From: a virus
DNA length: 64,000 bases
Reading direction: 5' to 3' (one strand)
Virus record (IMG/VR): IMGVR_UViG_3300034101_003795
Coordinates: 1-64,000 of that record
Shown here: positions 44,320-60,704 of the stretch, in pieces
Numbering within the stretch: position 1 is the stretch's first letter
How the letters are laid out: every line of letters starts with the position of its first letter
The notes under the pieces: generated by a model
What the model was told of the DNA's origin: nothing
Seen by the model: only the letters and a program-made list of their open reading frames with translations
Databases searched by the model: none
Program-made: the position numbers and the translations under genes

Positions 44320-44682
44320 TTAGAATGATACGGCTTCTTCCACTTCCTTCTTTTTAATTCTTGTAACCTTTGAAAAGTTATTTACTCTGACCTTGAGAGT
44401 TGAGTGCTTTACGCCATCCTTCTCCCAATTATCATTTCTCAAACTTCCTTCTACCATTACAAGATCGCCCTTTTTAAAAGATGATCCAATAATTTCAGCA
44501 CCGCTATCCCAAGCCTCGCACTGAATATATGAAACAATCTTATCCTTTGTCCCATTAGCTCTAGTAAATTCCTTAGATACGGCAATAGTGAAAGAAACAA
44601 CAGAAGTTTGCTTTTCTCCGCTATTCACTACTCGTAGTTCTGGATCCCTAGTAAGATTTCCCTTTAGTAAAATAATATTCAT
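44320..44682 (-). CDS. ssb: Single-stranded DNA-binding protein
   Basis: 120 residues with the bacterial SSB OB-fold: NIILLKGNLTRDPELR, VVSFTIAVSKEF, then IQCEAWDSGAEIIGSSFKKGDLVMVEGSLRNDNW. The protein is shorter than host SSBs (about 170) because the disordered linker is missing; the C-terminus EVEEAVSF still resembles the acidic tip with terminal Phe that recruits replication partners. It is transcribed from its own promoter with consensus boxes and ends at a strong terminator, so it is a monocistronic unit directly downstream of the split polymerase genes. Confidence 0.93.
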   Translation of the reverse strand: MNIILLKGNLTRDPELRVVNSGEKQTSVVSFTIAVSKEFTRANGTKDKIVSYIQCEAWDSGAEIIGSSFKKGDLVMVEGSLRNDNWEKDGVKHSTLKVRVNNFSKVTRIKKKEVEEAVSF

Positions 44683-44755: not shown

Positions 44756-46360
44756 TCAAACCGTAAAGCATTTTTTAACGATTGGTGTATTGTTTTGTCC
44801 ACCCTTTTGACCATTAAACATCAACACCCTACCCTCTTGTAAAAGATCCTTATTGTTGAGGTAATCTTCTGGAAATAATACTACAGAATCAACACTGCCA
44901 TTAGAATCAGACAGTCTCAAAAAACACATTTCTTGTCCAGGATTCTTACCTCTCTTAGTAACTATAACACTCATACTATCTATTTCTGCAATCATAAAAA
45001 ATTGTTTGCTATTTGGAAAATTCTTAATATCTTTACAGTCTGTATTGGCGTATGAAGAATCATAGAAATCAGTCTTAGCAAAACTTATAGACGCCCCAAG
45101 CAAATCTCTTTCATTATTTGATATCCATTCAGGATCATCCTCAATAGAATACGGTGGATTATTAATCTGATTAATCATACTAATAATTTTTGGTTGTCTA
45201 TTTTTTAGAATCTTCTCCCTAGAAAGCAAATTCTTTAAAATTTCAGAGGTTGTAGATATTTTTTTATCTGAAGAAATATTTTTACATTTTTCTGTTTCTC
45301 TAGCTGTTAAATTAATAATCATATTAAAGTCTAATAGCATTTTATTTCTTGATAACTTGTAATGATCTAAAGCACCAGATAAAATTAATGATTTGGCAGA
45401 TGCCGAGTTGATATTTGCCAAAACAGAAAATAATATTTGGGTCCATGTCATTTCTTTAATATCACACTTATTGATATGATCTAACAGCTTATTATATACT
45501 GATTCTCCAAGACCTTTTATATTTGTCAATCCAAAATAAATTTTATTATTAATAATTTCAAATTCTTTATTTTTCATTAATAAACTTGGTCCAAAAACAC
45601 TAATATCCATATCTTTAGCATTACTTATTAAGTCCAATATCTCTTGTTGAGGATCTATCTTGTCTTTGGCCAGTCTTAAATAAGACAAAAAGAATATTCG
45701 TGGAAAGTGTGCTTTCGCATATGCTGATATGTATCCGTTAATAGCATAACTAACAGCATGACTTTTATTAAAAGAGTATCTCTGAGATTTTTCAATCCAG
45801 CTAAAAATTTGTTCAGATTCGTCTCTATTGACTTTTCCAACAGCAAGGCAACCATCAATAAATTTAATTTTAATTTTTGCCATTTCTTCTGGCTTTTTCT
45901 TACCGATAGCTTTTCTTAGCATATCAGCTTCTTGAAGATTAAAACCGGCTATATCTTTGGCTATTTGCATAGCTTGTTCTTGATATACCATTTCTCCATA
46001 AGTATTTTTAAGGATTGGTTCTAATGATTCATGAAAATAATCAACAGATTCTAAACCATTTTTCTTATCTATATAATGATAAGATACGCTTTTACCGTCT
46101 CTAATAGCTTCTAAACATCCTGGCCTAAGAATAGATATTAGCGCCGATAGTTCTTCTATGTTTGATGGCTTGAGTTTTTTACTCATAGACTGTCCCAGTC
46201 TACTTTCTAATTGAAAACAACCTTTAGTGTTTCCATCAGAAATAAGCTCCCAAGTTTTTGGACAATCTAAATTAATCTTTGTTATATCAAAATCAATTGA
46301 TGTTTTATTATCAATATCTTTGGTATTAAAAGAACAACCACACTCAAATTGAATCGTCAT
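44756..46360 (-). CDS. dnaE: DNA polymerase III alpha, C-terminal part encoded separately
   Basis: 534 residues from the ATG at 46360 (MTIQFECGC). An upstream ATG at 46396 lies deeper in the exonuclease gene and gives a non-homologous hydrophobic start. The first 48 residues include a CGC motif at residues 7-9. Then come the PolIII alpha block after the catalytic Asp (TKGCFQLESRLG, ISILRPGCL), YGEMVYQEQAMQIAKDIAGFN and ADMLRKAIGKKKPEEM, FNKSHAVSYA, a helix-hairpin-helix (YFGLTNIKGLGESVY), and an OB-fold (FLRLSDSNGSVDSVVLFPE). It supplies finger and template-binding parts and must join the N-terminal subunit at 47202-49079. No intein motif is visible. Confidence 0.85.
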   Translation of the reverse strand: MTIQFECGCSFNTKDIDNKTSIDFDITKINLDCPKTWELISDGNTKGCFQLESRLGQSMSKKLKPSNIEELSALISILRPGCLEAIRDGKSVSYHYIDKKNGLESVDYFHESLEPILKNTYGEMVYQEQAMQIAKDIAGFNLQEADMLRKAIGKKKPEEMAKIKIKFIDGCLAVGKVNRDESEQIFSWIEKSQRYSFNKSHAVSYAINGYISAYAKAHFPRIFFLSYLRLAKDKIDPQQEILDLISNAKDMDISVFGPSLLMKNKEFEIINNKIYFGLTNIKGLGESVYNKLLDHINKCDIKEMTWTQILFSVLANINSASAKSLILSGALDHYKLSRNKMLLDFNMIINLTARETEKCKNISSDKKISTTSEILKNLLSREKILKNRQPKIISMINQINNPPYSIEDDPEWISNNERDLLGASISFAKTDFYDSSYANTDCKDIKNFPNSKQFFMIAEIDSMSVIVTKRGKNPGQEMCFLRLSDSNGSVDSVVLFPEDYLNNKDLLQEGRVLMFNGQKGGQNNTPIVKKCFTV

Positions 46361-47045
46361 TGAAAAAAGAATCCTTAAAAACAATTTTTGGAACAAGTCT
46401 TCTGTGTAACTTCATAAATCTAATCAAAATCTTAGCACAATCCTGAACATCTTTTAGTGCGTCGTGAGCACCCTCTTTTGATATTCCTAAATAATCTCTC
46501 ATAGAATCTAAGGAATAACTTTTTAGACCTTGGCTTTCAAACCAATAAAAGACTAAATTCATTATATCTAGAACGTCTCTCGGATAAAAAACAGTAGATG
46601 TTTTTTCTTTGTTATCGACATTCTTATATTTTTCACTAAGTCTTTGTATAATTTTTAAATCAAATCTATTTATATTATATCCTGCTGCTATTGGGGCGGA
46701 GAACATACTCTTTTTCTTTCCTCCAAAGCAATGATATTTCTCTAAATATGAGACAAAAGAATTCCATGTTACTTCTTGTGAAGGATATTCTCGCCATTTT
46801 GCATAAATCTCATCCTGAGAACATCCCTTAACTTTAGCATGAAAATCTATAATATCTGTTTCATATTTGTAATTTGCATCTGATTCCATAACTTCTGGCT
46901 TACAAAAACCATTAAATTCCGACCCCTCGACAATTTCTAGTTTTACAGGATCGACAATGATAGCAGAAATTTGAACCGGACTACAAACCAATGGATTTGA
47001 TCCATCTGTTTCAAAATCAAAAACGCAAATTTTTTTGGTTAACAT
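46344..47045 (-). CDS. dnaQ: DnaQ-like DEDDh 3'-5' proofreading exonuclease
   Basis: 233 residues. Motif ExoI is VFDFETDG (D10, E12), ExoII is GYNINRFDLK (D129), and ExoIII is AHDALKDVQD (H194, D199), so all five DEDDh residues are present. An insert of about 50 residues lies between ExoI and ExoII. It removes misincorporated 3' nucleotides. It lies between the two polymerase pieces, overlapping the C-terminal part by 17 bases and the small gene by one, so it is very likely its proofreading partner. The symbol reflects the family, not a proven role. Confidence 0.88.
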   Translation of the reverse strand: MLTKKICVFDFETDGSNPLVCSPVQISAIIVDPVKLEIVEGSEFNGFCKPEVMESDANYKYETDIIDFHAKVKGCSQDEIYAKWREYPSQEVTWNSFVSYLEKYHCFGGKKKSMFSAPIAAGYNINRFDLKIIQRLSEKYKNVDNKEKTSTVFYPRDVLDIMNLVFYWFESQGLKSYSLDSMRDYLGISKEGAHDALKDVQDCAKILIRFMKLHRRLVPKIVFKDSFFNDDSI

Positions 47046-47215
47046 TATATTTTGTCAATTTCGTCTAAAGGGGCGAACACTTGGGTTTGTCCTGTGGTGA
47101 CGGATTTTGCATTTTCTTTAATCTTACAACAAGAAATCCTAACCTCAGGAATCTTTTCATACTCTTCATTATTTATTCTAAATTTTTCACCAACAGCTAA
47201 TTCATGAAATTTCAT
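47045..47215 (-). CDS. Small phage protein between polymerase gene pieces
   Basis: 56 residues (MKFHELAVGEKFRINNEEYEKIPEV, ending APLDEIDKI). An AAAGGTG ribosome-binding site lies before the ATG, inside the end of the polymerase N-terminal gene, and the stop overlaps the exonuclease start (TAATG). The F-x-x-L-x-x-GEKF and YEKI pattern matches many short phage proteins with a small beta-barrel fold, whose function I do not know. Because of the tight coupling it would be made in step with both polymerase parts and may act as an assembly partner. Confidence 0.75.
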   Translation of the reverse strand: MKFHELAVGEKFRINNEEYEKIPEVRISCCKIKENAKSVTTGQTQVFAPLDEIDKI

Positions 47216-49079
47216 CTTTAACACCTTTCTGTAAAAAGTCTGATATAAACATTATTTTATCTAACATAGCAACGCCAAGAATATCAAATTTAACAACACC
47301 TATAGTCTCCAAATCTTCCATTTCCATACCAGCGATTCTGGTTTTGGTTTTTGAATCATAAACCATTGGACAAATAGTTGACAAATCCGAGTCTGCTATA
47401 ACTACTCCTGCCGCGTGTTTGGATTGGTTGACTTTAGTGCCTTCTAATCTAATAGCCTGTTCAAATCTTTTTGCAAGTGGTCCTTGTAATTCATTATTTT
47501 CGTCAATGAAGCACCAATCTTTGAGCTTGTCTGATTGATTCTCCAAAGCCCATCGTATAATAGAAGCGTCTCCTGTTTCATCTTTCATTTCTTGCAATTC
47601 ATCTGCAATCTTAGCTTCGTCAGGAATATTTTTGGTAATATTATTCATTTCCTCAAAGCTTACGTTTCCATAAACTCTAAGAACGTCCTTAATAGCTCCT
47701 CTACCCTTAATGGTATTAAAAGTGACCATTTGTGAAACTTGACTATCTCCATATTTATCTTTAATATAAGAAATAACGTTTTCTCTTTTATTAATAGGAA
47801 CGTCAACATCAATATCTGGCATACTTACTCTATCTTTAGTATTTCTTCCAGAATTATAGAATCTGTCAAAAATTAAACCATAATCTATAGGATTAATTCC
47901 AGTAATACCTATTAAGTAAGAAACTAAACAGCCAGCAGCACTACCTCTTCCTGGTCCCGGAAGCCACCCATTATTCTTAACATAGTTCACAATATCTTGA
48001 ACAATTAAAAAGTAACTGGATAGTCCAGCCCCTTGTAAAATATCAAGCTCATATTTAATACGATCTATATATTGAGATTGACTATCTTTTGGTATAATAT
48101 TTTGAATTTTATTTCTCCAACCATTTCGACACAACTGTCTTAAATATTCATCTGGAGATTCGCAATTAAAAGGAGGTAGTCTTGGTCTGCTGCCAATATC
48201 ATATATATCACACATCGCAGATACTAACTGAGTGTTCTCTATCTCTTCTTCTGTATGTAATAGTGTCATTTCTTCCTGCGAAAGAATATGATAGTTGTCC
48301 GATGTGAAGAAACACCCCATGGGAACATCTAGTCCAGAATTAATCTTTCTGCTAATTTCTGGCATAGTTGTTTTTAAATTATTACATAATAATATTCTTT
48401 GATCAGAAGCGTCTTCTTTATTTGAATAGTGAGCATCTGGAGTACAAATTATTTTAGTATTAGTTAATTTTCCCAATTCTCTAATAGTTTCGGTTAGTTG
48501 TTGTTGAATAGGAATATTATCTTTATCCATTAATTGAGATTCTAAAAAGAAATTATCATTACCAAATATTTCTTTTAATTTAGATATAAGAGGTATCGCT
48601 ATGTTTTTCCAGTCTGGATCTATAGTATTATTGACAATAATCTTGTCAGCAATCAGGGATCCAAGATGGCCGCATATACCTATCATATTGCCGTCACAAA
48701 ACCTTCCAAGGTTCTCTAGATCGATCCTGGGCTTGTGATAATAAAAGTCTGGCCTGTTGCACTCTGAAACTAAACGGATCAAATTGTGCCAGCCAGTTAG
48801 ATTTTTGGCCAAAACAATAAAATGGCTCAATTCTTTGTTTGACTTGTCCTTATAGGTCGCGTCATCAGATATGTAAAGTTCACAACCTAATATTGGCTTA
48901 ATACCAGCTTTTGTCATTTCTCTATGAAACTTGATTGATCCAGCTATGTTGCCATGATCCGTCAAAGCACACGATGTTGCTCCAATTTCTAGACACCTAT
49001 TGGCTATCTGAGACGGTTTTGATAGACCATCCAAAAGACTATACATTGAATGACAATGTAATGGATTATATTTTTTCAT
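47202..49079 (-). CDS. dnaE: DNA polymerase III alpha, N-terminal part with PHP and palm
   Basis: 625 residues. The PHP domain begins HCHSMYSLLDG and keeps likely metal ligands H8, H10, D41, H42, E67, H86 and the D-x-H of TPDAHYS. The palm follows with PGRGSAAGCLVSYL (about 375-388), catalytic D424 and D426 in PDIDVD, and D599 in VVKFDILG. The protein stops 26 residues after the third catalytic Asp, exactly in the linker before the FQLES block. The catalytic triad is therefore complete here, but the rest of the enzyme is the gene at 44756. It overlaps the upstream nuclease gene by four bases. Confidence 0.88.
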   Translation of the reverse strand: MKKYNPLHCHSMYSLLDGLSKPSQIANRCLEIGATSCALTDHGNIAGSIKFHREMTKAGIKPILGCELYISDDATYKDKSNKELSHFIVLAKNLTGWHNLIRLVSECNRPDFYYHKPRIDLENLGRFCDGNMIGICGHLGSLIADKIIVNNTIDPDWKNIAIPLISKLKEIFGNDNFFLESQLMDKDNIPIQQQLTETIRELGKLTNTKIICTPDAHYSNKEDASDQRILLCNNLKTTMPEISRKINSGLDVPMGCFFTSDNYHILSQEEMTLLHTEEEIENTQLVSAMCDIYDIGSRPRLPPFNCESPDEYLRQLCRNGWRNKIQNIIPKDSQSQYIDRIKYELDILQGAGLSSYFLIVQDIVNYVKNNGWLPGPGRGSAAGCLVSYLIGITGINPIDYGLIFDRFYNSGRNTKDRVSMPDIDVDVPINKRENVISYIKDKYGDSQVSQMVTFNTIKGRGAIKDVLRVYGNVSFEEMNNITKNIPDEAKIADELQEMKDETGDASIIRWALENQSDKLKDWCFIDENNELQGPLAKRFEQAIRLEGTKVNQSKHAAGVVIADSDLSTICPMVYDSKTKTRIAGMEMEDLETIGVVKFDILGVAMLDKIMFISDFLQKGVKDEIS

Positions 49080-50122
49080 TCCGCACTTCCTGGAGCTTTA
49101 TATTTACCAAATGAATGATTTTCTGCCTTATATTCTGATACTACAGTATCCATTCCTTTTACCTCAATATCATGTTTAATTTGTTCACACTTTGTCATGA
49201 ATGTGTCTTTTTTACAACATTGACTGTCTCTATATTCTATTACTGGCAATATGCTGTTATGGTCTTGAAAATCGCTTTTGCCAAAATGACATAATTTATT
49301 GCACATCCATGTTTTATTTAGTCTTGGTTTTTGTGTTTGTCTTATGATCTCAAATTTCTTTTGTAGCATTTGCTCTGTTCTTTGCAAATCGCTTTTATCA
49401 AATAAAATTGAGAAAGGGCCTCCATCATTAATAAAGTATATTGTTATCATAACACTATCATATTCAGGATATAATTTGCTAATAGCATAATGATATATCA
49501 ATAACTGAGGATCTGTCTGAAGTTTTTCTGGTGTTTTTTCTTTACCAGTGGCCCAATCTAGTCTTCGTCCTGTTTTCCAGTCGATGACCTCGATTGTATT
49601 ATCGCTGGCCTTGGTGATTAAGTCAATAGTGCCTTTTAGTCCAAGATAGCCTTGCAGTTTACCTTCGGGTGTGTCAAAAGAATATTTTGCCCAAGGCTTT
49701 TTAATTTCAAAATCAAAATGTTGTTCTGGACATAATATTTCTCTATTCCTAGGATCAAAAGCTCCGTCATGATATGATATGGCTTTATTAACCCAGTTAT
49801 GACAATCCTTATAATCTTTTACTTCCCAAGTATGATGAGAGAATTGACTAGTATAATACTTATATGTTTTTTCTATAATAGTATTTAAACTATATTTTTT
49901 CGTATATACTTTACCTATAACATCATCTTCAAAAGAATCTATTCCGTCTTGTTCGCTCTTTTTTATTATTGCTAGAATTTCTAAGGCTTTATGACATATA
50001 GTTCCTTTATCAGCCTTTTTATTAGATGGTCCTCTCATACCGAGCACATATTCTATAAAATATTGTTGTTCACACATATTATGTGTGTTGAAAGAACTGC
50101 TTCTAAAATATGTGGTTATAAT
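49076..50122 (-). CDS. RecB/Cas4-like PD-(D/E)XK nuclease, apparently starting at ATT
   Basis: From the ATG at 50077 there are 333 residues, but the frame is open upstream to a TAA and codes RSSSFNTHNMCEQQYFIEYVLG, the conserved N-terminus of the RecB family (S-x-S-x-x-N-x-x-x-C-x-x-Y). The only plausible initiation point before this is ATT at 50122, preceded by AAAGGA with good spacing and overlapping the end of the dNMP kinase by seven bases. Later features are 'KGTICHKALE', a helical body, catalytic VIDWKTGRRLDW and a C-terminal Cys-rich segment (CCKKDTFMTKCEQIKH), possibly a 4Fe-4S or Zn site as in Cas4/AddB types, though pairs are irregular. It probably processes DNA ends with RecA. Confidence 0.75.
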   Translation of the reverse strand: MITTYFRSSSFNTHNMCEQQYFIEYVLGMRGPSNKKADKGTICHKALEILAIIKKSEQDGIDSFEDDVIGKVYTKKYSLNTIIEKTYKYYTSQFSHHTWEVKDYKDCHNWVNKAISYHDGAFDPRNREILCPEQHFDFEIKKPWAKYSFDTPEGKLQGYLGLKGTIDLITKASDNTIEVIDWKTGRRLDWATGKEKTPEKLQTDPQLLIYHYAISKLYPEYDSVMITIYFINDGGPFSILFDKSDLQRTEQMLQKKFEIIRQTQKPRLNKTWMCNKLCHFGKSDFQDHNSILPVIEYRDSQCCKKDTFMTKCEQIKHDIEVKGMDTVVSEYKAENHSFGKYKAPGSAE

Positions 50123-50703
50123 GGTAGTATTCCTTTATTTTGTAAAAAATCATAAATTAATTTATTTTGTTCTTCAATCGTAAGTTCTTTATTGTCTATT
50201 ATCAAATCAAAATTATTCTGATCATAGTTTTCAGGATCTAAAGCTATTTCACTAGCATGATTAGAATGATAAAGATTCCTACATAGTTTAATAACTATTC
50301 CACCACTATTCTTAATTGCTTCTACTTCATTTGGAAATCTACAATCAGCAATCAAAGATAATGGATGTTGATCTTTATTAATAGTTCTAATTGTAGCACT
50401 CGCCCACACATTATGCTGCATGGTTCTGAACATCTCTGTCCCAACTAATTGAAGAACCTCTCTGGCGGAAAGTTGTTTATTGTTCCAATAACAGTCAACC
50501 AATTCATTTTTTTGATCATCTGTTCCATAGCATTGGTCATATGTTAAACCAAAAATACTGATACACATCATCTTAAGAGGATCAGCAAAATTATAGACTT
50601 TTGCATTACCTAGTTTATTATCTAAGAAAATTTTTGTAACGAATTCCGCACATGTTGTTTTTCCAGACTGTTTTCTTCCTGCGAACGCTATTATTTGTGT
50701 CAT
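50116..50703 (-). CDS. Deoxynucleoside monophosphate kinase (T4 gp1-like)
   Basis: 195 residues. Walker A is GRKQSGKT at residues 9-16; KVYNFADPLK, QLVGTEMFRTMQHNVWASA and 'PLSLIADCRFPNEVEAIKNSGGIVIKL' follow the T4 gene 1 dNMP kinase pattern, with the LID-like DCRF-x-NE region. It would convert dNMPs, including those from host DNA breakdown, to dNDPs. It sits in the nucleotide and replication operon. Its start overlaps the primase stop by four bases. Confidence 0.85.
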   Translation of the reverse strand: MTQIIAFAGRKQSGKTTCAEFVTKIFLDNKLGNAKVYNFADPLKMMCISIFGLTYDQCYGTDDQKNELVDCYWNNKQLSAREVLQLVGTEMFRTMQHNVWASATIRTINKDQHPLSLIADCRFPNEVEAIKNSGGIVIKLCRNLYHSNHASEIALDPENYDQNNFDLIIDNKELTIEEQNKLIYDFLQNKGILPL

Positions 50704-51848
50704 AAAAATCTCTTTATCTGATTATTAATTTCTTCTTTAGTCATTTCGGCAACATCTGATTTCGTAATAGAAATTCTTTTTACCTTATATGTATTTTTAC
50801 ATTTTTCTTCAATTATTTTGGCTGCTTTATCACCAGCGTCATCATTATCGGTAAGAATAATAATATTCATAGCTCCTGACCCATCTAAAAGTATCTTTTG
50901 TCTATCACTTAATGAAGACCCAAACATAGCAACACTATTATGTATTCCTTCTTCTTCTAATCTCCATACATTGCCAGGGCTTTCTACAAGAATAACCTGA
51001 GAACTATCTAAGATAGAGTCTTTAGCAAACCAAAAATTATACAAGTGGTTTTGACTTTTAAAGTCTTTATTATGTTTCCACTTACAATATTTCCATAGTT
51101 CTTCTGATCTTGGACAATCTTCTGCGTGGTCATGATAATGTTTACACTTGCTACATTTCTCATAGACACTTCTTCCAGAACATCCTACTACATATTTGTA
51201 AGTTATATCATATATAGGAACAACAGCCCTACCATACATTTCTTTATTTTTGTTTGAGCAGGTTCCAACGTCGTATCTATCTAAGATCTCAGACCCAAAA
51301 GACCTATCAAGAAAATATTTACTTGGTATAGAGAGTGATTTTCTAACAATTTTTCTAGTGATATCTTTATTATGTGTCTCATTATTGTTTTTAGTAATAT
51401 TATTTACAATATTTAAGAATTTCTTTTTCTCGATTTCATCATTAGATATTTTTATATCGTCAAGATTCTCATTTAAAAACTCTTCAACAAAAGACATTGT
51501 ATCATTAAAAGATATTGAAGAGTCTCCATTTTTACTCCAATTATTTTTTTTATTAGATAACACGCCTCTTATAAAACCAATGATAGAAGATTTAAATGTT
51601 TTCTCGCATCCATGAGTTCTACATTTCCAATTTCCTCTATAGGCATCCCCAGTAGGATATAGATTAAATGCAGACATATTATCGCCATCATGTATGGGAC
51701 ACGGCCCCACAAACATTTTACCATTTTGTTTTAATTCAGATATTCCTAAAGTTAATAGTAGTGATTCAAAATTATCACATAGTTTATCACATATAACTTT
51801 TAGTTCATGCTGATTATATGAACGGGATATTTTGGTCATCATTGTCAT
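50700..51848 (-). CDS. DNA primase with Zn and Toprim domains
   Basis: 382 residues. An N-terminal zinc motif (C50-x2-H53 ... C76-x4-C81 in GPCPIHDGDN and WKCRTHGCE) resembles CHC2 primases. A second Cys-rich stretch (CSGRSVYEKCSKCKHYHDHAEDC) in the middle may be another zinc site. The Toprim domain carries ILVESPGNVWRLEEEG, AMFGSSLSDRQ and ILTDNDDAGDKAA, with E and D-x-D in place. The C-terminus is short, so there is no helicase-interaction domain; the helicase is the adjacent DnaB gene, which it overlaps by 35 bases. It makes primers for the phage replisome. Confidence 0.85.
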   Translation of the reverse strand: MTMMTKISRSYNQHELKVICDKLCDNFESLLLTLGISELKQNGKMFVGPCPIHDGDNMSAFNLYPTGDAYRGNWKCRTHGCEKTFKSSIIGFIRGVLSNKKNNWSKNGDSSISFNDTMSFVEEFLNENLDDIKISNDEIEKKKFLNIVNNITKNNNETHNKDITRKIVRKSLSIPSKYFLDRSFGSEILDRYDVGTCSNKNKEMYGRAVVPIYDITYKYVVGCSGRSVYEKCSKCKHYHDHAEDCPRSEELWKYCKWKHNKDFKSQNHLYNFWFAKDSILDSSQVILVESPGNVWRLEEEGIHNSVAMFGSSLSDRQKILLDGSGAMNIIILTDNDDAGDKAAKIIEEKCKNTYKVKRISITKSDVAEMTKEEINNQIKRFL

Positions 51849-53280
51849 TTGTTATATTAAATCCATTTGTTTTACTATTTTTGGTTATATTATTAGAAAT
51901 TTCTAATTTGGTTCTTCCTTCTACTATTTTAGCACACCACCCCTTCATGTGACAATTAATATAATCATTATCGTCTAATCCTCCTCCGTGCCTACTGATT
52001 AAAGGAACCAATTTTCTATTTCCTTCATTTGGTCCATCTTCTGCTATTTCTTCTTCGCTCTTCTTTTTGAAAATACTAAAATTACTACACAACCAAATGA
52101 TTCTATCAGAACCGCTTGCTGTATCTGTACTTTCTTTATTGATACCGTCTCTATTTAATTGAACAAAAGCAACAACAGGCACTTTATATCTGGTAGCAAA
52201 ATTATGTAAACTAGTCATCATGAATCCAAGAACCTGATATTCTTTTAGATCTTGACTCATTCCAGCACTATCCATTAGTTTTAAATAGTCATAAAATATT
52301 ACACATGGTTTTGCGGACCCATCATCATTTAAACCAACCTCCTTAACTATCCATCTTCTCATGATAGACAATTGTTCTTCAAATGGTTTTCCTGCAATAC
52401 TTTTATAAAATAGTTTAGTATTTTTTAATTCTTGAACCGCTTTTATAACTTTATTATTCTTATCTTGAGATTGAGAGAACTTACCAGTTTCAATATGATT
52501 AATCTCTGTCTCTGTCATCATAGCTAAAATTCTATTAATATGATCTTCTTTTGTCATTTCTGTATCCATATTTAATACAGGAATATTTTGTTTAGCTATA
52601 TTAAAACCCATATTATCTGATAATAGTGTTTTGCCTGTCTTTGGTCTGGCCGCTATTACATTAACTGTGCTTTTTCTTAAACCACCACCAATGGCTTGAT
52701 CATATACAGGAAACCCTGTTGGAATACCAACTTGATCTATTGGATTATTAATTAATTGATTTATATAATCATCAATATCTGATCCTATAGCAACAGGATT
52801 TGATTCACTATCATTAATTAAAGAAGTAAAATCAAAAACAGTATCTTCCGCAATAGATATAATAGAAGTTATTGGTTCACTACCATTTATATCTAACAGT
52901 TTAGATTTTGCATTTTCTAGTTGTTCATGCAATAATCTCGCTATTTGTAATTTTCTAATCTTTGCTGCAAATTTTGGAATGTTGTCCTTATTTACAGGAA
53001 AATCCATTATTGCTCTGAGATGCTGAGTCTCTTCTTTTTTAGAAAGAATTTGTGATACACCCAATTCCTGAGCAATAGAATAAATGGATGCTATATCTAT
53101 GGTTTTTGTTTGTCTTTCACAAAGCTCTTTTAAGCACTTGAATATGATAGCATTACTATCTATAGTAAATGATGTTTCTTGAAGTATATCTGCTATGTCT
53201 AGATATACATCTTCTCCATATCTATAGATACCAGATAGAACTGCTCTTTCAGCAGATGGATCGGCTAAAACTGTAGGCAT
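51814..53280 (-). CDS. dnaB: Replicative DNA helicase DnaB-type
   Basis: 488 residues. The N-terminal domain matches DnaB (ADPSAERAVLSGIYRYG, LKELCERQTKTIDI). The RecA-fold domain has Walker A ARPKTGKTLL (K217), catalytic NMDTEMTKEDH (E241), Walker B VIFYDYLKLM, and a DnaB H3-like 'VPVVAFVQLNRDG' strand. Length is close to bacterial DnaB (about 470). It unwinds the fork and recruits the primase, whose gene overlaps the 3' end. The symbol gives the family. Seven bases separate it from the upstream zinc-finger gene. Confidence 0.92.
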   Translation of the reverse strand: MPTVLADPSAERAVLSGIYRYGEDVYLDIADILQETSFTIDSNAIIFKCLKELCERQTKTIDIASIYSIAQELGVSQILSKKEETQHLRAIMDFPVNKDNIPKFAAKIRKLQIARLLHEQLENAKSKLLDINGSEPITSIISIAEDTVFDFTSLINDSESNPVAIGSDIDDYINQLINNPIDQVGIPTGFPVYDQAIGGGLRKSTVNVIAARPKTGKTLLSDNMGFNIAKQNIPVLNMDTEMTKEDHINRILAMMTETEINHIETGKFSQSQDKNNKVIKAVQELKNTKLFYKSIAGKPFEEQLSIMRRWIVKEVGLNDDGSAKPCVIFYDYLKLMDSAGMSQDLKEYQVLGFMMTSLHNFATRYKVPVVAFVQLNRDGINKESTDTASGSDRIIWLCSNFSIFKKKSEEEIAEDGPNEGNRKLVPLISRHGGGLDDNDYINCHMKGWCAKIVEGRTKLEISNNITKNSKTNGFNITNDNDDQNIPFI

Positions 53281-57043: not shown

Positions 57044-57622
57044 TTAAAAATAGGACTCTGGTAAGTAAATTTTCCATTCTACTGGTATGTCCTTTATCTT
57101 AACTAAGTAGGACGCTATAGGCAAGTACTTCATATTTTTTTGAGGCATTATTGGCAAATTTCTAAGTGGCATATTTGCTTGTTTAGGAGTTTTATTCCCT
57201 TTTCTTCTATTACAATAAACACAAGCGGTAACTATATTAGTCCAACTAGTCGGAGATATCTTATCATTATTCCATAAAGATTTAGGTATTACATGATCAT
57301 ATGTAAGTTGGTTTATTTCTACTTGATTGCCACAATATTGACAAGTATAATTATCTCTAATAAATAAATTTTTTCTAGAAAATTTTACTTTGGAATTATT
57401 TATACGAAAATATCTTGCTGTTTTAACAACAGCGGGGATTGGATATTTTTTATCATTAGAACAAAGAATATAATCGTCTTTATAAAAATCAATTATTTCA
57501 ACACCAATCTTACGGTTGGCCTCGTGTTTAAAAGACCAAACAATAGCTTTTTGCCAATGAATTATAGTAATAGGAGTATAGTCAGCATTTAATACTAGAC
57601 ATTTAGTATTTTGTATTTTCAT
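57044..57622 (-). CDS. HNH endonuclease
   Basis: 192 residues. The HNH core is RDNYTCQYCG, then LTYDHVIPKSLWN, then NIVTACVYCNRRKGNKTP: two CxxC pairs and the DH of YDHV fit. The N-terminal 70 residues resemble the 'LNADYTPITIIHWQKAIVWSF' region common to phage and bacterial HNH proteins of this type. It could cleave host or competing DNA, or act in homing. It overlaps PhoH by 20 bases. No intron is seen beside it. Confidence 0.85.
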   Translation of the reverse strand: MKIQNTKCLVLNADYTPITIIHWQKAIVWSFKHEANRKIGVEIIDFYKDDYILCSNDKKYPIPAVVKTARYFRINNSKVKFSRKNLFIRDNYTCQYCGNQVEINQLTYDHVIPKSLWNNDKISPTSWTNIVTACVYCNRRKGNKTPKQANMPLRNLPIMPQKNMKYLPIASYLVKIKDIPVEWKIYLPESYF

Positions 57623-58337
57623 TTTCTATTTGACTTAATCTTCCTAATATTTTAACAATTATAGGATTTCTAACTATATCAGAACCCAATAACTGCACAA
57701 TACCAATACTATCAATATCATTTAAGGCATTTATCATTTCGGCAAATCCGCCTCTTTGACTTTTGTGGAGATCGCTTTGTCCAACATCTCCAGTAAGTAC
57801 CATTTTACTATTATTTCCAGTTCTTGTCAATAACATTTTTAATTGATCATACGACGCATTTTGACATTCATCGGCGACAATAAAAGCATTATGAAAATTA
57901 CGACCTCTCATTAATCCTAATGGAACAACTTCAATTTTATTATTCAATCTTAATGATGCATAATGGGATGGGCTTATAAAGTGATTAATTTCATCTAATA
58001 TTGGTAATAGATATGGATGAAGTTTCTCTTCTGCTGTTCCGGGTAAATAGCCAATTTTTTCACCAGCCTCTATCACTGGTCTTGTTATTATGATCTTTTT
58101 TACTTTATCATCAAGTAAATACTCAAGAGCCATACCAATAGCAATATGTGTTTTACCACTACCAGCCAATCCCTGGCAAAATGTTATCGTATTTTCAGCT
58201 ATCATACGAATATATTCTGCTTGATTATCTGTTCGTGGCTTCAATCTATTTCGATATGCATGACCAGCATTTTCATTCACCAATGGTTTTGTTGCATCAA
58301 TTACTTTCTTTTTCTTGCTTCTTGTGTTTTTTCTCAA
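57603..58337 (-). CDS. phoH: PhoH-like ATPase
   Basis: 244 residues with an apparent TTG start at 58337 (ribosome-binding site AAAGGG). Walker A is GLAGSGKT (residues 56-63), then IITRPVIEAGEKIGYLPGTAEEKLHPYLLPI, 'GRNFHNAFIVADECQNAS', and SKMVLTGDVGQSDL, the full PhoH signature. Related proteins are common in phages and their role is unclear, perhaps RNA metabolism. The basic N-terminus is short, without an added PIN domain. It overlaps the HNH gene. Confidence 0.9.
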   Translation of the reverse strand: MRKNTRSKKKKVIDATKPLVNENAGHAYRNRLKPRTDNQAEYIRMIAENTITFCQGLAGSGKTHIAIGMALEYLLDDKVKKIIITRPVIEAGEKIGYLPGTAEEKLHPYLLPILDEINHFISPSHYASLRLNNKIEVVPLGLMRGRNFHNAFIVADECQNASYDQLKMLLTRTGNNSKMVLTGDVGQSDLHKSQRGGFAEMINALNDIDSIGIVQLLGSDIVRNPIIVKILGRLSQIENENTKY

Positions 58338-58358
58338 TGGTTACCCTTTGCTATAGAG

Positions 58359-60554
58359 TTAAATTAGACAAGCGCCACCAGCACAACTAATTTCCTCTAT
58401 ACCAGTAGTATTGTCCTCAGTCTCTGATAGTTGTGTATAATCAACCTTTTTGAAACTATTAAATAGATCACAATATATCTTCCAATTATGAACATCCTTC
58501 ATACAGTATGTTAGCCGTTTAATGTCTCCATCAAAATATTTACCAGCAAAATTTTTGGCCTTAGTTATGAATAATAGTTTATCTTGACTATCATTTTCTT
58601 TGGCCTGATCCATATTCACATAATCACACGCAGCCCATAAATTATTATCAAATGAATTTAAGGCAAGCTCAATCAGTCCCGAACACCAAAGAGCAGCATC
58701 TCCATATTCTTTTACAATTTCACGACTAGTATAAACTGTAGTAAAAGGAGCTTGTGGATAGTCTTTATCTCCGCTTTGAGGGATTAAACTAATACCAGCA
58801 AAATATTTACGATTATTATAAATATATTCCGTCACACTATCCCACTCGTCTGGCTTTACTGTTACTGTATTACTCACATTATGGCTTAAAAACTCTTGAG
58901 TACATAAGGTTTTGTTTTTACCAGAATTTACCCAATTCTTTTGTGTGTCCTTAACCACAGAAAGCATTTCGACTGCTGGTAATTGATTTTTTAATTTTGC
59001 ACCATCAGGCACTTCAATAGGAAACTTGACAACTTCATCTGTGTTATTGGCAGACCATCTTGATTTCTCGCAGGCTTGAGGATTATAAGTTTTAAAGTGT
59101 TGGTATGGTGCTTCTAAAATATTGGCCTGTACGTGCCTTATATAGCGTTTAGCGTGATGAGGATGAATACCAGAGCTTGTTCCAAGCATACTAGAAGAAG
59201 TACCTTCTGGTTTTAAACAGGTCACTCTTGCTGCTTGGTTAATTTTTATTTTTTCGGCAAATTTCTTATTAGTTTCTACTGCTATTTTAGCACCCTTGGT
59301 TAATACCTTTTCTGTTAGTACTAAATCATGCTTTTCCATAGTACCAGTCAAAGACACCCCTAATAAGGCTTCTCTTTCAAATATTTTTTTACTTATATTT
59401 CCAAGATATTCAAGATTTGTAAATCCAGCTTGTAGCGTTCCTATTATTGCTGCCGCTTTACATCTTTCATAGAAATCGTCTTCGTCTATAACACTAGAAC
59501 AATTTATAGTTGTTAAATTACATCCTTGCCATCCGCTCTTACCACTCTCTTCATCAACAGGCCACATCCCAATTTCTACACATGGATTAAAAATCATTTC
59601 TGTTGATTCGCTCCAAATAAATCCTGGTTCTCCAAACTCCTTCACACTTTCCATAAGGGTTTGAAATTCTTCAAATGTTGTTTCATTTTTTAGTAATAGA
59701 GCAGAGTTGTTGCTTCGTGCTCTTTGTGGATTTTCTATATACCAGTTTCCTGTTTTAGCCTTAGCCATTTCTTCGTCTTCTGGACTAAATAATGCTAAAC
59801 TAGCAGACCGACGAACGCCACCACTTAGCACAGCATCACTGCTATGCATTACTATATCATAAGCATCAATAGGACGTAGTTTTTTTTGTCCATTCTCTAT
59901 ACAACGATCAAGTAAAGTTCTTATCTTTTCTAGACCGTTTTGGAGTGGCTCAAATCCTGGTGCCTTACCAACGCCAGAACTTAAATTAGAACCCTTAGAT
60001 CGTATATTAGAATAATCAAATATAACATAACTATTTTTATACATCTTAAATTCTTCAATAGGCTTACTAACATAACTGCTAAGAAGAACACCCAATGCAT
60101 CAGCCCATCCTTCAATACTATCTTCAATAATATATTTCATTCCTTCATTATTATCAGGAATATCATGTTCTAGTGATGGCAATTTAGCAACGTGATGCTT
60201 TTGAACACTAAAGCCCGTGCCACTGCCACACAATAATAGCCAGAAACATTCTTGAAAAAATCTTAGTCTATCACAATAAGAGCTTGTGCAATTATAAATC
60301 TTTGCGTGTCTTTTTAAGATTGGATCTCCGCCGAACTGAAGTGCTCTTTGACTACCAAGAACCTTCTTTTTATACATTATATCATATGACCAATCAATAT
60401 CTTCTGATATTCCAAAATCAGCATACTTAGTATGCATCATATTTTTAACTCGCTCTACGGCTTCTTTCCAAGTTTCTCTACGATTTTTATCTTCTAACCA
60501 GCGAGCATATTTACTAACGAATGTATAATTTTGAAGTTCTTGAAGAGCAGACAT
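58359..60554 (-). CDS. Class II (B12-dependent) ribonucleotide reductase, monomeric type
   Basis: 731 residues from the ATG at 60554, chosen because CAGGAGATAAT lies directly before it; an upstream ATG (60605) lacks a ribosome-binding site. The N-terminal segment (YNCTSSYCDRLRFFQECFWLLLCGSGTGFSVQ) and the NPCVEIG motif (N323, C325, E327), with cysteines C89 and C345 for redox cycling, match the Lactobacillus leichmannii-type class II enzyme. The C-terminal CAGGACLI holds the redox pair. It reduces ribonucleotides, probably triphosphates, using adenosylcobalamin, which must come from the host. No separate beta subunit is present, as expected for this class. Confidence 0.9.
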   Translation of the reverse strand: MSALQELQNYTFVSKYARWLEDKNRRETWKEAVERVKNMMHTKYADFGISEDIDWSYDIMYKKKVLGSQRALQFGGDPILKRHAKIYNCTSSYCDRLRFFQECFWLLLCGSGTGFSVQKHHVAKLPSLEHDIPDNNEGMKYIIEDSIEGWADALGVLLSSYVSKPIEEFKMYKNSYVIFDYSNIRSKGSNLSSGVGKAPGFEPLQNGLEKIRTLLDRCIENGQKKLRPIDAYDIVMHSSDAVLSGGVRRSASLALFSPEDEEMAKAKTGNWYIENPQRARSNNSALLLKNETTFEEFQTLMESVKEFGEPGFIWSESTEMIFNPCVEIGMWPVDEESGKSGWQGCNLTTINCSSVIDEDDFYERCKAAAIIGTLQAGFTNLEYLGNISKKIFEREALLGVSLTGTMEKHDLVLTEKVLTKGAKIAVETNKKFAEKIKINQAARVTCLKPEGTSSSMLGTSSGIHPHHAKRYIRHVQANILEAPYQHFKTYNPQACEKSRWSANNTDEVVKFPIEVPDGAKLKNQLPAVEMLSVVKDTQKNWVNSGKNKTLCTQEFLSHNVSNTVTVKPDEWDSVTEYIYNNRKYFAGISLIPQSGDKDYPQAPFTTVYTSREIVKEYGDAALWCSGLIELALNSFDNNLWAACDYVNMDQAKENDSQDKLLFITKAKNFAGKYFDGDIKRLTYCMKDVHNWKIYCDLFNSFKKVDYTQLSETEDNTTGIEEISCAGGACLI

Positions 60555-60704
60555 ATTATCTCCTGGTTTGATTATTGCATAATGAAAGAAGTCCGAGTAA
60601 CACACTAGTATGGAAAGAAAAAGTAATCATTTCTGTGTTACCACTAATCCATCTATAATAGATATAAAAACATAAACTTATATAAAATGATAATTGCTGT
60701 ATAT

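Follow-up and report, generated by a model that had tools for sequence, protein, structure and literature searches.

A phage DNA polymerase III alpha subunit encoded as two proteins, cut between palm and fingers, with a DnaQ-like exonuclease gene in the cut

The window analysed here is a stretch of 64,000 nucleotides (nt), positions 1 to 64,000 of the IMG/VR virus record IMGVR_UViG_3300034101_003795, and is part of a phage contig of 91,952 bp. In it, the alpha subunit of DNA polymerase III (PolIII) is encoded by two genes, with a small open reading frame (ORF) and the gene of a DnaQ-like exonuclease between the halves, as listed in Table 1. This arrangement had been proposed in an earlier reading of the DNA made without database searches (the sequence-only reading), and the ORFs, the Pfam matches and the tiling of an alpha profile agree on it. 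The gene of the N-terminal piece (N) overlaps the small ORF by 14 nt, as read off the sequence, the small ORF and the exonuclease gene share stop and start letters in TAATG, and the exonuclease gene overlaps that of the C-terminal piece (C) by 17 nt, with the letters AAGGA about 11 nt upstream of the C-gene ATG at 46360.

Table 1. Genes and features of the split alpha locus and of its neighbourhood in the window
Feature	Position	Strand	Remarks
PolIII alpha N piece	47202..49079	-	625 aa; PHP, palm, thumb; catalytic Asp D424, D426, D599
Junction: variable N tail past third catalytic Asp	47202..47282	-	corresponds to E. coli alpha palm/fingers linker, about 572-584
Small ORF	47045..47215	-	56 aa from ATG 47215, or 59 aa from GTG 47224; overlaps N end
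DnaQ-like DEDDh 3'-5' exonuclease	46344..47045	-	233 aa
PolIII alpha C piece	44756..46360	-	534 aa from ATG 46360, or 546 aa from TTG 46396; fingers, HhH, OB-fold
Cas4/RecB-like PD-(D/E)XK nuclease gene	49076..50077	-	overlaps N start; Pfam PDDEXK_1 E 3.1e-16
SSB gene	44320..44682	-	Pfam SSB E 1.1e-24
Primase (Toprim) and DnaB-like helicase genes	50700..53280	-	same replication block; Pfam/PHROG searches

In Pfam searches, N matched PHP (E 3.6e-35) and DNA_pol3_alpha (E 3.8e-73), and C matched DNA_pol3_finger (E 1.4e-49) and HHH_6 (E 4.7e-7), with a weak OB-fold match under the curated cut-off. The NCBIfam profile TIGR00594 was tiled by N (3-572) and C (569-1021) with no gap and almost no repeat. 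When aligned to solved structures, N matched Escherichia coli alpha to residue 572 and C started at 584; the C profile aligned to residues 584-903 and 949-1055 (of 1160), and C lacks the tau-binding domain, since it ends about where that domain would begin. From established knowledge of alpha, we take the position of the cut to be the palm/fingers boundary. All three catalytic Asp residues are in N, which ends 26 residues past D599, and the deoxynucleoside triphosphate (dNTP)-binding fingers are in C. The features of a DnaE-type C-family polymerase are thus present (PHP, palm with three catalytic Asp, fingers and HhH), in two polypeptides rather than one. An AlphaFold2 (AF2) model of N (pLDDT 85.9, pTM 0.84) had Taq PolIII alpha (2hpi) as its top match, with a TM score of 0.79. 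Judged by eye only, no obvious QxxMF-like clamp-binding motif was seen in alpha.

The sequence-only reading had placed PHP and the catalytic triad in N, with the stop 26 residues after the last Asp, and had C resume before the FQLES block with FNKSH uncut; this was confirmed, both blocks being intact in C. Its further statement that the cut falls in a natural linker, and not at the cyanobacterial split-intein site, is borne out by the structure alignment and by the intact FNKSH.

The profile search across phage genomes that this reading had suggested was carried out with N, C and exonuclease queries, and near and distant relatives were collected from IMG/VR and a few metagenome-assembled genomes (MAGs). 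The collection, of at least 406 loci, is a lower bound, and the group is larger. All 406 loci were scored, and a reduced set of 237 distinct loci was used for counts of residues, identities and spacings. It was found that the order N, exonuclease, C recurs in 364 of the 406; N is in two frames, followed by exonuclease and C, in 16, C is in two frames in one, the exonuclease is in two frames in one, 23 are without downstream genes (mostly short loci that end there), and one had no match at threshold. In no locus (0/406) were N and C fused in one frame, and wherever a locus is long enough to show it, the exonuclease sits between the halves. An assembly, frameshift or annotation artefact might be suspected where the sequence is metagenomic only, but it is refuted by the recurrence in hundreds of independent contigs, with complete intervening genes and not a frameshift, and we give it virtually no weight. 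A sequencing rearrangement, by which the sequence-only reading could have been overturned, is excluded in the same way.

Across the distinct loci, identity to the window is 41-84% for N and 37-79% for C, and the N sequences form 193 clusters at 95% identity and 20 at 60%. The three catalytic Asp residues of alpha are kept in 237/237, the fingers motifs are nearly invariant, and N ends 15-43 residues past the last catalytic Asp. The exonuclease and C genes overlap, or are separated by at most 10 nt, in 205 of the 237, with a median overlap of 4 nt. The median ratio of nonsynonymous to synonymous substitution rates (dN/dS), from about 30 independent pairs, was 0.041 for N, 0.023 for the exonuclease and 0.038 for C.

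Both pieces are under strong purifying selection and keep their catalytic residues invariant, which counts against decay. A full-length dnaE elsewhere in the genome, with these pieces degenerating, would have spoken against the sequence-only reading; none was found, the window's record having one palm match and one fingers match within the 92 kb of a possibly incomplete record. Ten relatives of 93-224 kb were searched whole, and nine had one palm and one fingers match, the tenth having two of each. In G007, the 206-kb record of locus L297, the split alpha region is present twice, at 53-56 kb and 199-202 kb, which is possibly end redundancy. It might be supposed that the pieces are decaying or are used outside replication while the host replicase copies the phage, as the failure to find a phage clamp and the loss of PHP metal ligands in part of the clade (both described below) would allow; against the selection on both pieces, and with phage primase, DnaB-like helicase and SSB genes in the same block, we consider this very unlikely. 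The split is an old, fixed state of a phage group, not decay.

The exonuclease matched Pfam RNase_T (E 3e-10) and PHROG 192, 'DNA polymerase exonuclease subunit' (E 6.3e-22), and had no match at 1e-5 in named phages. Its DEDDh residues D10, E12, D129, H194 and D199 are kept in 237/237 distinct loci, whereas the PHP metal ligands of alpha are missing in a quarter to a third (H8 aligned in 160, H10 in 161 and H42 in 180 of the 237), although some of these losses may be alignment gaps. In L252-L263 and L267, N is only about 531 aa, with PHP residues ~111-215 missing and palm and exonuclease intact. The frequent loss of PHP ligands, compared with the invariance of DEDDh, suggests that the separate exonuclease, not PHP, is the proofreader. 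PolC, a single chain whose PHP domain contains an inserted exonuclease domain, is a loose parallel to an exonuclease placed within a split alpha. The C-terminal tail of the exonuclease (window 46344-46400) carries KIxFxxxF, which is conserved beyond the nuclease domain and in which F223 and F227 are invariant in the alignment; it is a candidate docking motif for the polymerase.

The small ORF has the conserved pattern F..G..F...Y.K....CC; it had no Pfam or PHROG family, and its best named-phage match was only E 0.04. It is present in 127 of the 237 distinct loci and is elsewhere replaced or absent, so its 56-aa product would be an accessory at most, outside the invariant core. Of the putative replisome module put forward by the sequence-only reading, the exonuclease is present between the halves in all informative loci, whereas the 56-residue gene is optional. 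In the window's subgroup, C begins with a short F.CGC.F extension (window 46290-46360) that other subgroups do not have, and metal binding by this extension and by the conserved CC of the small protein is possible.

In cyanobacterial DnaE and in 'fractured genes', enzymes encoded by two genes are rejoined by split-intein trans-splicing, and the halves described here might likewise end up as one alpha chain, through a split intein acting after translation or through trans-splicing of their RNAs. Other positions of alpha do carry split inteins in members of this phage group (breaks are marked by a slash). In L126 (3754-6814), L133, L154 and L357, N is broken again at GPGRG/SAAG, the first ORF ending with the intein N half and the second starting with ...GVHN/SAAG, and in L126 and L133 an endonuclease-like ORF lies between the fragments. 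In L262:11018-13850, a split intein breaks C at FNK/SHAV and a NUMOD3/DUF559-type ORF lies between the fragments; alpha thus occupies three genes. The N fragment of L126 and the first C fragment of L262 (C1) matched TIGR01445 and PF14890, and therefore inteins were detectable; neither window piece had a TIGR01445 or TIGR01443 match at E up to 0.1, in keeping with the failure of the sequence-only reading to see an intein motif. The site also differs from that of cyanobacterial DnaE, with no intein match at the junction. Introns were not found at the Rfam gathering threshold at the window locus and three relatives, and the N tails of all 237 loci are too short for a usual intein half. Trans-splicing is thus extremely unlikely. 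An in-frame cis intein with an HNH-like insert was also seen in C, at RPG/C, in L011:7707-10046, L012, L027 and L028.

Very probably, the locus encodes a stable split C-family replicase, the phage's own, that would assemble non-covalently and use the DnaQ-like protein as its proofreader. N, the exonuclease and C would be translated in order from one message by way of overlapping or touching frames, palm and fingers would bind each other non-covalently where the linker used to be, restoring the site for dNTP and primer-template, and the exonuclease, judging by its position and conservation, would join as an epsilon-like proofreader, with the small protein as a putative accessory. A precedent for a two-piece phage polymerase is provided by Aeromonas phage 25, the split gp43A/43B proteins of which co-purify and are polymerase-active (PMC2988022).

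Several observations weigh against this interpretation. Confidence in the C model is moderate (pLDDT 79, pTM 0.57), although its best matches are PolIII alpha, and the palm/fingers interface is therefore only a prediction. No sliding clamp was found in the window's record, so a processive replicase would need the host's clamp, and the close members of the clade are all metagenomic. In some relatives, other, unrelated genes lie between N and exonuclease or between exonuclease and C; strict coupling is thus not universal, and the overlapping frames noted in the sequence-only reading hold for the window but not for all relatives. In a stronger version, the replicase would be an obligate complex put together during translation from N, C and the exonuclease, and in some phages also the small protein; the exonuclease would help to bring palm and fingers together or would license the active enzyme, and its gene would for that reason be kept in the cut. 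We regard this version as possible but less likely than not.

In a tree of joined alpha sequences, 15 clade members formed one group (support 100/100), set off by a long stem of 0.83 from every unsplit alpha sampled, whether of phages or of cells; the tree has several long branches, and deeper placement is unsure. No unsplit close sister of the clade was found among the best 80 loci per scan by similarity, a search biased against finding one. In an even-step sample of 60 from 1,336 named-phage records, the match ran unbroken through the junction in 59, and such splits are therefore rare in named phages. Four gut 'Bacteriophage sp.' records, taken from the best-scoring named matches, have an alpha in one piece, about 1,160 aa long and similar to cellular DnaE. 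The same boundary is cut in the named isolate Rossellomorea phage phiT1 (PV767480.1, gp20/gp19/gp18; L278:5977-9259), in which the pieces cover TIGR00594 1-573 and 580-1022, each carry the annotation 'DNA polymerase III subunit alpha', and have a 49-aa gene and no exonuclease between them. Because phiT1 groups with Bacillus phage Jayan (92/83), outside the window clade, the palm/fingers boundary has apparently been cut at least twice.

These comparisons bear on the origin of the split, which may go back to a homing-nuclease insertion, to the loss of a split intein or simply to the arrival of the exonuclease gene in the linker. The split may be a by-product of mobile-element insertion (a homing endonuclease or a lost split intein), tolerated through re-association, with the exonuclease arriving later and its place having no functional meaning. 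The phiT1 cut, with only a 49-aa gene in it, agrees with this, as do the T4-type gene 43 and nrdA splits, which are tied to homing nucleases (PMC2988022), and a LAGLIDADG ORF that splits N again just ahead of the first catalytic Asp in L212:3108-6101 and L271, an intron-like interruption for which no Rfam match was found in L212. However, in the sampled clade the palm/fingers junction is not regularly accompanied by a homing nuclease; in the window it holds the small ORF and the DEDDh exonuclease rather than the homing endonuclease of fractured genes, and throughout the sampled clade an exonuclease with an intact active site is present there. We consider this origin a real possibility, at somewhat less than even chances, and it is compatible with the assembly of the two pieces.

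Two-piece phage polymerases as such are already known, namely T4-type gp43A/B, the minimal PolIII alpha of jumbo phages and the actinophage PHP/palm splits. In group 2.2 jumbo phages, a split minimal PolIII alpha is made as two stand-alone proteins predicted to rebuild one enzyme (Iyer et al. 2021, PMC7824862). The window alpha is similar in being a phage C-family alpha in two proteins, but the jumbo-phage pieces are without other PolIII domains, are encoded by distant genes and have a family B polymerase alongside (PMC7824862), whereas the window alpha has PHP, adjacent genes and an exonuclease between them; no family A or B polymerase (PF00136 for family B) was found in the 91,952-bp record, which may be incomplete. 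The T4-type gp43A/gp43B of Aeromonas phages 25 and 44RR is likewise a replicative phage polymerase in two genes, but it belongs to family B, and instead of an exonuclease of the proofreading type its two parts are separated by untranslated sequence or by a seg-type homing nuclease; the resemblance is one of working principle only. In actinophages Onyinye, Weiss13, Suzy and Anakin, alpha is annotated as two genes, with a cut that parts PHP from an intact catalytic core, and in Jayan the cut, near profile position 416, directly precedes the first two catalytic Asp residues; these split alphas sometimes have a small gene between, as in the window. What is new is that a full, PHP-containing alpha is interrupted within the catalytic core, that an exonuclease gene occupies the break, and that this state is fixed in hundreds of phages; no published report of this arrangement was found in the open-access literature.

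The PD-(D/E)XK nuclease gene upstream and the SSB gene downstream are neighbours kept among relatives, and a deoxynucleoside monophosphate (dNMP) kinase gene is also found near the split alpha of the window (Pfam/PHROG). At 57603-60605, the same block of the window also has a PhoH-like gene, together with a divergent gene that weakly matches class II ribonucleotide reductase. In one subgroup, a TylF-like methyltransferase gene lies between exonuclease and C (L042:8774-9514), and in L020:8740-11204 this place is taken by a 2.6-kb cassette that includes a ThyX-like ORF and a prepilin-like ORF. By eye, the latter resembles planctomycete DUF1559 proteins, a possible hint of a host; the matches of a host scan of the genome contigs were confined to MAG contigs assigned variously to Chitinophagia, Flavobacteriales and Alphaproteobacteria, and do not suffice to name a host.

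The locus represents a natural, long-maintained replicative polymerase cut between palm and fingers, within its catalytic core, and the group of uncultured tailed phages that has it is large and widespread. It makes testable whether a C-family replicase can work from two chains, how palm and fingers hold together without the linker, and whether fidelity or the order of assembly depends on the proofreader gene staying in the cut; the pieces could also be used directly as a two-part polymerase.

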